A model generated the notes under the pieces. The model did no database searches, was not told where the DNA came from, and was given only the letters and a program-made list of their open reading frames with translations. The position numbers were made by a program, and so were the translations under genes. DNA of 64,000 nucleotides from NCBI GenBank assembly GCA_026415415.1, contig JAOAHE010000001.1:1-64000 (forward strand), written 5' to 3'. This document shows, in pieces, positions 3,485 through 5,061 of the stretch (positions are counted from its first letter, which is position 1; each line of letters starts with the position of its first letter). The stretch comes from Thermodesulfovibrionales bacterium. Its GTDB lineage: Bacteria > Nitrospirota > Thermodesulfovibrionia > Thermodesulfovibrionales > Dissulfurispiraceae.

Positions 3485-3748
3485 TTAGCAGCCTTCAGGT
3501 TTTTTCTTCTTTGGAGCTTCCTTCTTTACAACACCATCTTTAATAGTGACCTTATCACCAACCTTCACATCTTTTGCGTCTTTTACCTCAACAGTTGTCT
3601 CTTTTCCTTTGTCGTCTTTTACGGTCACTTTATTGCCCTCAACCTTAGAAACAGTGCCCTTTACCTCGGCTGCTGCAAATGCCATGGATACTAAACCCAT
3701 AGTGAAAATTATAGCAACCATTAAAGCTATAATTGACTTAATTTTCAT
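3485..3748 (-). CDS. Small secreted beta-rich protein with terminal cysteine
   Basis: An 87-residue protein with a signal peptide (cleavage likely after MAFA, near residue 25). The mature part is a short alternating-beta domain (VKGTVSKVEGNKVTVKDD, then VKVGDKVTIKDG), as in small SH3/OB-like DUF5666-type periplasmic proteins, and ends in a lysine-rich tail KKKKPEGC with cysteine last. A strong AGGAGGTGA ribosome site precedes the ATG. Small Geobacter proteins of tellurite/selenite operons look alike, but I cannot make that assignment from sequence. Function unknown, perhaps a periplasmic metal or redox partner. Confidence 0.7.
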   Translation of the reverse strand: MKIKSIIALMVAIIFTMGLVSMAFAAAEVKGTVSKVEGNKVTVKDDKGKETTVEVKDAKDVKVGDKVTIKDGVVKKEAPKKKKPEGC

Positions 3749-3922: not shown

Positions 3923-5017
3923 TTAGTCTTGCATAGGCTTAATAAACATGAAATAAGCCATAGTCCAGTTACCGAGAATGATAAATATAGTAGCAAGAAT
4001 ACTTTGTAATGACAACGCTGACATACCTGTCAGTGAATGCCCAACAGTTCAACCTCCAGCAACTATAGCACCAAAACCCATTATTAATCCTCCAATAAAA
4101 ACCCTTAAAAGCTCATCTGCCTGTTTTGGTGCTGTAAGTTTAAACTCTTTTAACCCCTTCGCACTCATATAAGCACCTATGGGAACGCCTACTACATAAA
4201 GAGCACTCCATGTGAGTATTCCTATTCCAAAAAGACTAAACATAGGATCAAAAGGAGCTTGACTATTTCCAGTAAGCCCAAACATTAGAAAATCTACTGT
4301 AGGACCTGAAAAAGATAAGCCTCTTGCCTGTCCACCAAAATAATAAGATGCCCACCATGCTAATATGACTAAAAGACCAATTATAGCGCCACCAGCCGAC
4401 CAAGTCCATCCTTTCTTTGCTACTCCAGAGAATGGTTTGCCTTTGAAAACTATGGGAATTATAATAGCGATAACAACAGCAATTACTGCCCATTTAATAT
4501 ATAGAGATTGACCAAAAAAGTCCCATAGAGCTGGTGTAGTTATAGCATCATCCCCTGATCCTATAGCTACTTTATAGCTTTTTAATGCTTTAACTATTGG
4601 ATTAAGAGGACCATGTAATGAAGCTATTAAAGAAACAGCAAAACCAAAGGTGGCAACAAGAGCTGCAAACTGTCCTTCACCTTGTTTATAGAGAACTCCA
4701 CTTCCACACCCACCTGCTATTACAATACCTATACCAAAGAGATAGCCACCGACTATTGCAGAAATTGGCGAAAAAACCTGCCTTCTTAACCCATCATCCC
4801 CTAATAAACCTACATCTTCAATAAAGTTAGAGCCTATTATAGCTATACCTAAGGCTATTAGCCAAGAACGGAACATGGTTAAATCGTTTATAAAGATCAC
4901 GTCTCTAAAAGCAGTGTTCATTCAATATCTGCCACGTTGAAGAGCAAAGCCGAACATGACACCAACTAATAAGCCACTTAGAATAACCATAACACTGGCT
5001 TGGGGCACTCCCTCCAT
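3923..5017 (-). CDS. YeeE/YedE-family sulfur-compound permease with two predicted selenocysteines (TGA at 4922-4924 and 4049-4051)
   Basis: One frame of 364 residues from ATG 5017 (AAGGAGG site upstream) to TAA 3923 is interrupted only by two TGA codons. The first is residue 32 in GFALQRGRY-U-MNTAFRD, the second residue 323 in GAIVAGG-U-TVGHSLTG. Homologs have cysteine at both places. The third family cysteine, GGCGSG, is kept as Cys104. In YeeE thiosulfate importers three such cysteines relay the substrate through the membrane. Sequence continues to match the family on both sides of each TGA, so simple decay is unlikely. TGA is an ordinary stop elsewhere in the window (for example rbfA, mrpE). 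Best reading: an inner-membrane permease for thiosulfate, sulfide or selenium species using Sec. Sec incorporation itself is inferred. Confidence 0.85.
4018..4033 (-). promoter_or_regulatory. Candidate bacterial SECIS hairpin for the second TGA
   Basis: Read on the minus strand, 15 nt after the TGA at 4049-4051 begins CTGACA-GGTA-TGTCAG: a perfect 6-bp stem with a GGUA loop, the loop starting 21 nt after the codon. This fits the general bacterial SECIS rules (apical loop about 16-37 nt downstream, G among the first loop bases). It lies within the coding sequence, as bacterial SECIS elements do. The first TGA has only a weaker, less regular candidate. Confidence 0.6.
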
Positions 5018-5048: not shown

Positions 5049-5061
5049 AAGCCAATGGCTT
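5049..5061. promoter_or_regulatory. Palindrome AAGCCAATGGCTT upstream of the YeeE/YedE gene
   Basis: Six-base arms around one central A, 32 nt upstream of the start at 5017, in AT-rich flanks that are themselves partly symmetric. It shares the core AGCCAATGGCT with 246-260. Likely an operator; the regulator is unknown. Confidence 0.4.

Follow-up and report, generated by a model that had tools for sequence, protein, structure and literature searches.

The gene yeeE on the minus strand of the window, the 64,000-nucleotide stretch of Thermodesulfovibrionales DNA analysed here, very probably encodes a full-length double selenoprotein of the YeeE/TsuA type, to judge from comparative sequence evidence. 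Selenocysteine (Sec) is a rare amino acid that is more reactive than cysteine. When TGA is translated as a residue, the frame from the ATG at 5017 to the TAA at 3923 gives 364 amino acids, and its only in-frame TGAs are codon 32 (4924–4922) and codon 323 (4051–4049), exactly as an earlier note on this DNA had described. An AGGAGG Shine-Dalgarno sequence lies upstream of the ATG. The gene and its three relay positions, matched to those of Spirochaeta thermophila YeeE (PMC11073785), are:

3923–5017, minus strand: yeeE (Sulf_transp, PF04143), 364 amino acids with predicted Sec32 and Sec323, from the read-through frame, the profile match and the orthologs
4922–4924, minus strand: TGA codon 32, in place of the third relay cysteine at the cytoplasmic exit, equivalent to Cys22 of S. 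thermophila YeeE in the 6leo alignment
4706–4708, minus strand: Cys104 (TGT), the unchanged middle relay cysteine, equivalent to Cys91 in the 6leo alignment and the orthologs
4049–4051, minus strand: TGA codon 323, at the first (entry) relay cysteine, equivalent to Cys293 in the 6leo alignment

The PF04143 profile covers the read-through product almost from end to end (239 bits against a gathering score of 27), and protein similarity indeed continues across both TGAs, as the earlier note had claimed. In the alignment with PDB 6leo, residue 32 falls on the Cys of QRGRIC, residue 104 on GGC(A)SG and residue 323 on GGCNIGH; together with the orthologs, this bears out the proposal that the TGAs occupy Cys positions of homologs while Cys104 is retained. 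A predicted structure, for which the alignment input was 33 family members, has a mean pLDDT of 82.6 and compares with 6leo at TM 0.81/0.89; 6leo and 8k1r both score ~0.8 when normalised to the query. Hence both the fold and the three relay positions of TsuA/YeeE proteins are present, with Sec predicted at two of the three. The best NCBIfam models are likewise those of TsuA, at scores under their curated whole-protein cut-offs (NF052577, 243.6 against 400; NF041049, 163.1 against 645), which leaves the product outside these TsuA equivalogs.

A search of 60 genomes of relatives showed that the yeeE genes of 16 genomes, counting this one, contain TGA at precisely these two codons. The other 15 orthologs are 66–88% identical to the yeeE of the window, and the 16 genomes all belong to one order (Thermodesulfovibrionales, Nitrospirota), in which they span 10 genera and 2 families, although G014 and G027 are near-identical in yeeE, so that the 16 amount to about 15 independent sequences. 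A class-wide search of 230 genomes recovered the same 16 genomes plus G124, a member of the clade with one TGA, and a sample of the phylum yielded no additional yeeE with two TGAs. None of the 16 genes contains TAA or TAG in frame, and in 15 of them Cys104 is the sole other cysteine of the protein. At both sites the close relatives have either Cys or TGA and no other residue. The stretches flanking each TGA are under strong purifying selection: for the pairs that could be computed, several others having saturated dS values, dN/dS was 0.00–0.14 in all three parts into which the TGAs divide the gene.

In the phylogenetic tree, the two-TGA genes and G124 form one clade (support 100/99), whose sister is an all-Cys clade (100/99) found in several of the same genomes. 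The gene of G124 (L099, G124:C113) combines TGC at site 1 with TGA at site 2 and retains the SECIS core AGAGACGTGATC. Site 1 of G124 is likely, and most simply, a Sec-to-Cys reversion with a relict SECIS, since retention of the core is what such a reversion would leave behind. Separately, a 3.4-kb contig of the Bacteroidetes MAG CROMO_A_64 (L126) encodes the N-terminal 215 residues of a YeeE that is 87% identical to that of the window and has TGA at site 1; it is most likely Nitrospirota DNA that was binned into the wrong genome.

The two regions of highest synonymous conservation in the gene lie just 3' of the two TGAs. Within the double-TGA clade, synonymous identity was 0.78 behind TGA32, where 0.39 was expected, and 0.49 behind TGA323, where 0.27 was expected. 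In contrast, the sister Cys clade was flat at the same places (observed/expected 0.45/0.43 at site 1 and 0.33/0.31 at site 2). The core AGAGACGTGATCTTT behind TGA32 is invariant in all 16 genes, and the core CTGACAGGTRTGTC behind TGA323 has few exceptions. From the synonymous peaks, the consensus folds and compensatory changes, two candidate elements were delimited:

4885–4911, minus strand: predicted SECIS 1, a hairpin whose apical loop CGUGA starts 20 nt after UGA32
4017–4034, minus strand: predicted SECIS 2, a CUGACA-GGUA-UGUCAG hairpin whose loop starts 21 nt after UGA323

In this genome, 9 of the 10 consensus pairs of the first candidate and 6 of the 7 of the second can form. RNAalifold predicted a hairpin behind both sites in the Sec genes and nothing similarly strong at either site in the Cys paralogs. 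Compensatory changes and the covariation score exceeded those of all 500 shuffled and all slid versions of the alignment. The relatedness of the sequences weakens this shuffle test, so that the difference from the Cys clade supports the hairpins more strongly. Both have a G within the first two loop bases; this G and the loop distance reportedly fit the bacterial SECIS model of Zhang and Gladyshev from 2005. The gene thus combines two features looked for in bacterial selenoproteins, namely a UGA aligned with the Cys of homologs in several genomes and a SECIS-like hairpin 3' of each UGA. Searches with Rfam families near yeeE gave weak matches only, far under the gathering scores.

The selenocysteine machinery that the earlier note had named as a check is encoded in this genome. 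Profile searches found selA (626.8 bits), selB (389.2 bits) and selD (377 bits), all over their cut-offs; selD is itself a putative selenoprotein, with an in-frame TGA in SAGUASK. SelB was detected in all 17 genomes of the clade, and a full canonical tRNA-Sec(UCA) in 18 of 22 genomes. In this assembly the Rfam model detected no complete canonical selC, its best tRNA-Sec match being a Sec-shaped tRNA-Cys. With the canonical selC of relatives as query, the first 25 bases (24 identical) were found at the end of contig C71, the anticodon lying beyond the contig end. This fragment (G000:C71:10107-10149, L142 1501-1543) is followed by TGTCTCTTATACACATCT, which we take to be the end of a Nextera transposon adapter. 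The start of selC with an adapter tail at the contig end explains the apparent absence of tRNA-Sec from the assembly, and selC is most likely present in the genome and was cut by the assembly. All four genes expected of a selenoprotein-producing bacterium (selA, selB, selC and selD) were accordingly traced, selC as its 25-nt start, with the UCA anticodon visible in relatives only. Canonical selC was also not found in the assemblies of the relatives G001, G020 and G027.

The Sec-shaped tRNA-Cys lies next to a second, all-Cys yeeE of the same genome. This paralog (L001 1656-2744) starts 23 nt after the tRNA (L001 1501-1632), and the two together span G000:C58:9938-11181. The tRNA has an 8/5 acceptor/T-stem, a 6-bp D-stem, U73, a GCA anticodon and a very long variable arm. 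The same arrangement of tRNA and all-Cys yeeE occurs in G006, G019, G027 and G041 (loci L077, L088, L089 and L090). ARAGORN reported no tRNA at L001 and L077, the two loci scanned. A tRNA-Sec-like body with U73 and GCA is characteristic of selC* tRNA-Cys; the 8/4 acceptor/T-stem with a bulged A51a described for that class (PMC7609411) was not seen, the fold here being 8/5 without a bulge. The idea that SelB guides this tRNA to the codons for Cys in the paralog is not supported, as there is no SECIS-like conservation behind those codons. Ahead of the tRNA, G006 has a gene that scores 318 bits with the LysR_Se model against a cut-off of 250, and G019, G027 and G041 have LysR-type genes of similar appearance. 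A YedF gene follows downstream in G019 (203.8 bits, cut-off 110), with similar-looking genes in G006 and G027. The window genome lacks a LysR gene ahead of the tRNA; its all-Cys yeeE is followed by a double-cubane reductase with its activase.

Two in-frame stops might suggest that yeeE is decaying or mis-sequenced and that the TGAs are nonsense mutations, the more so because ordinary gene calling yields just a fragment of 290 amino acids (4049–4921, residues 33–322), owing to an ATG directly after TGA32. We give this reading practically no credence. Orthologs with TGA at precisely these positions in 15 other genomes refute it and exclude a sequencing error at the TGAs, and together with the low dN/dS on either side they uphold the argument of the earlier note that two chance decay events are improbable; the lack of any TAA or TAG in frame and the conserved hairpins speak against it as well. 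The UGAs could also be read as Cys, by the Sec-like tRNA-Cys or by a tRNA-Sec loaded with Cys under selenium shortage. A tRNA of tRNA-Sec shape with Cys identity does occur in the genome, and selC* tRNAs with a UCA anticodon are known from other bacteria (PMC7609411). However, the Sec-shaped tRNA-Cys of this genome has a GCA anticodon, which reads UGU and UGC rather than UGA, while its relatives have a normal tRNA-Sec(UCA) and the genome itself has selA and selD, which makes decoding as Cys very improbable. Genome-wide recoding of UGA was likewise rejected: six other open reading frames of at least 150 amino acids in the window end in TGA, in line with the local recoding for which the earlier note had argued, and TGA is the true terminal stop in 3 of the 16 double-TGA orthologs. 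Under the selenoprotein reading that we prefer, SelB and Sec-tRNA(Sec) would insert selenocysteine at both UGA32 and UGA323, with a separate SECIS hairpin ~20 nt downstream directing the insertion at each.

A role of the double-Sec YeeE in sulfur relay is probable by analogy with characterized transporters. In the YeeE-YeeD structure, Cys293, Cys91 and Cys22 are the first, second and third relay cysteines from the outside to the inside, spaced 8.6 and 6.7 Å apart, with Cys17 of YeeD 10.8 Å further (PMC11073785). By homology, a substrate such as thiosulfate or another sulfane-sulfur species would meet Sec323 at the outer side, pass to Cys104 and then to Sec32 at the cytoplasmic side, from where it may be handed to a carrier of the TusA, YeeD or DsrE type. 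This order would place selenium both at the substrate-entry site and at the site of hand-over to the carrier. Selenium at entry and exit may provide stronger nucleophiles and better leaving groups at the ends of the relay, while the sulfur of Cys104 in the middle may keep the transfer reversible.

The surroundings of yeeE include a small gene downstream and a conserved hairpin in the leader:

3485–3748, minus strand: ExtJ-like small exported protein of 87 amino acids that ends in -EGC, directly downstream of yeeE (NF040942, 56.6 bits, cut-off 52.5)
5049–5061, minus strand: leader mini-hairpin AAGCC-ATT-GGCTT, 5' of the Shine-Dalgarno sequence, from comparison of ortholog leaders

The small exported protein also follows yeeE at 10 of the 13 named loci; most copies end in -EGC, and 7 of the 8 copies tested pass the NCBIfam ExtJ cut-off. 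The core of the mini-hairpin, AAGCC-NTT-GGCTT, is present in 14 of the 16 double-TGA genes as opposed to none of 20 all-Cys genes, and its stem is kept in relatives despite base changes; Rfam contains no matching family. Genes resembling dsrE and dsrF, in some cases with dsrH, lie directly upstream of the double-Sec yeeE at 6 of the 13 named loci. This resembles the YTD or yeeE-tusA-dsrEFH type II cluster, which has been tied to sulfane-sulfur import in a study that does not mention selenocysteine (PMC13293266). In contrast to that cluster, these genes are unlinked to yeeE in the window genome, where neither a DsrE nor a TusA gene was observed beside it.

The name ExtJ derives from a selenite/tellurite reduction operon, and the related family YedE has been linked to selenium metabolism (PMC5322559), both of which could indicate that the cargo is a selenium or tellurium species instead of sulfur, in which case YeeE would transport selenium and also contain it in its relay. 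We consider this unlikely. The models for YedE/FdhT (NF033796, 90.1 bits against 350) and seleno_YedE (TIGR04112, 38.1 bits against 200) cover about one third of the protein and leave it outside the YedE selenium transporters, whereas the best matches are TsuA models; sulfane sulfur is suggested by the DsrE/DsrF genes that adjoin yeeE in relatives (PMC13293266), and the function of ExtJ is itself unknown (PMC5877670).

The supposition of the earlier note that YeeE selenoproteins might already be on record holds for forms with one Sec: YeeE/YedE (PF04143) appears as a selenoprotein family in two reviews, the more recent of them from May 2026 (PMC13188914, PMC9312934). Of the full-length form with two, we found no description in the literature searched, some key papers and supplements lying outside that search. 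The main texts of PMC2398784, PMC12013277 and PMC5029168 do not mention YeeE. The entry in the latest review has the motif GUxSG and one Sec (WP_012471001.1). It shares with our protein the Pfam family and the replacement of a conserved Cys by Sec, but differs in having one Sec instead of two. By its motif alone, it fits a half-length protein with GARLADGUPSGHG rather than the full-length form with GGUTVGH and QRGRYU. Such a half-length protein is a second candidate YeeE selenoprotein of this genome (L079 585-1100, G000:C68), where it adjoins a second half-length YeeE gene; the Sec-containing half also occurs in G007, G010, G020 and G051.

Elsewhere in the class, several lineages have a full-length YeeE in which the first relay cysteine alone is replaced by Sec. 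In other families of the order, the Sec of these single-Sec proteins lies in GGUN[IVF]GH and is followed by a hairpin, while their third relay cysteine is Cys. A further arrangement with a single Sec occurs in two more distant YeeE-like proteins of ~320 amino acids (L086 428-1390, L087 405-1448 (-)), where TGA replaces the Cys of QRGRF(C), giving QRGRFU, and Asp replaces the Cys at the other site. Compared with YeeE/TsuA of Spirochaeta thermophila and E. coli (PDB 6LEO, 8K1R; PMC11073785), the double-Sec protein has the same full-length fold, relay positions and motifs, but Sec is predicted in place of the first and third relay cysteines and there is no fused YeeD. What is new is thus the full-length YeeE with two Sec, the family with one Sec being already known.

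It is plausible that the double-Sec YeeE and its all-Cys sister form a selenium-responsive isoform pair, because of the LysR_Se-like and YedF surroundings in relatives and the precedent of HrsM, an archaeal LysR_Se ortholog with which Cys isoforms are repressed when selenium is present (PMC5322559). A more elaborate scheme, to which we attach a rather low likelihood, is a pair switched by selenium, in which a Se-S-Se relay would carry sulfane sulfur when selenium is available, LysR_Se would free the Cys form when it is not, and the tRNA-Cys would have a part in the switch, whether by sensing, by providing a processing signal or by serving as a dedicated Cys donor. The link between the Cys isoform and the Sec-like tRNA-Cys may offer a setting for a class of tRNA whose job is unknown. 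Ordinary annotation, which calls residues 33–322 only, leaves the double-Sec yeeE invisible. The all-Cys genes, those with Sec at the first site, those with Sec at both and the reversion with a relict SECIS form a natural series in which the gain and loss of Sec can be studied. With selenium predicted at two of the three relay positions of a transporter of solved structure, single-atom swaps can probe what selenium does in a sulfur relay.
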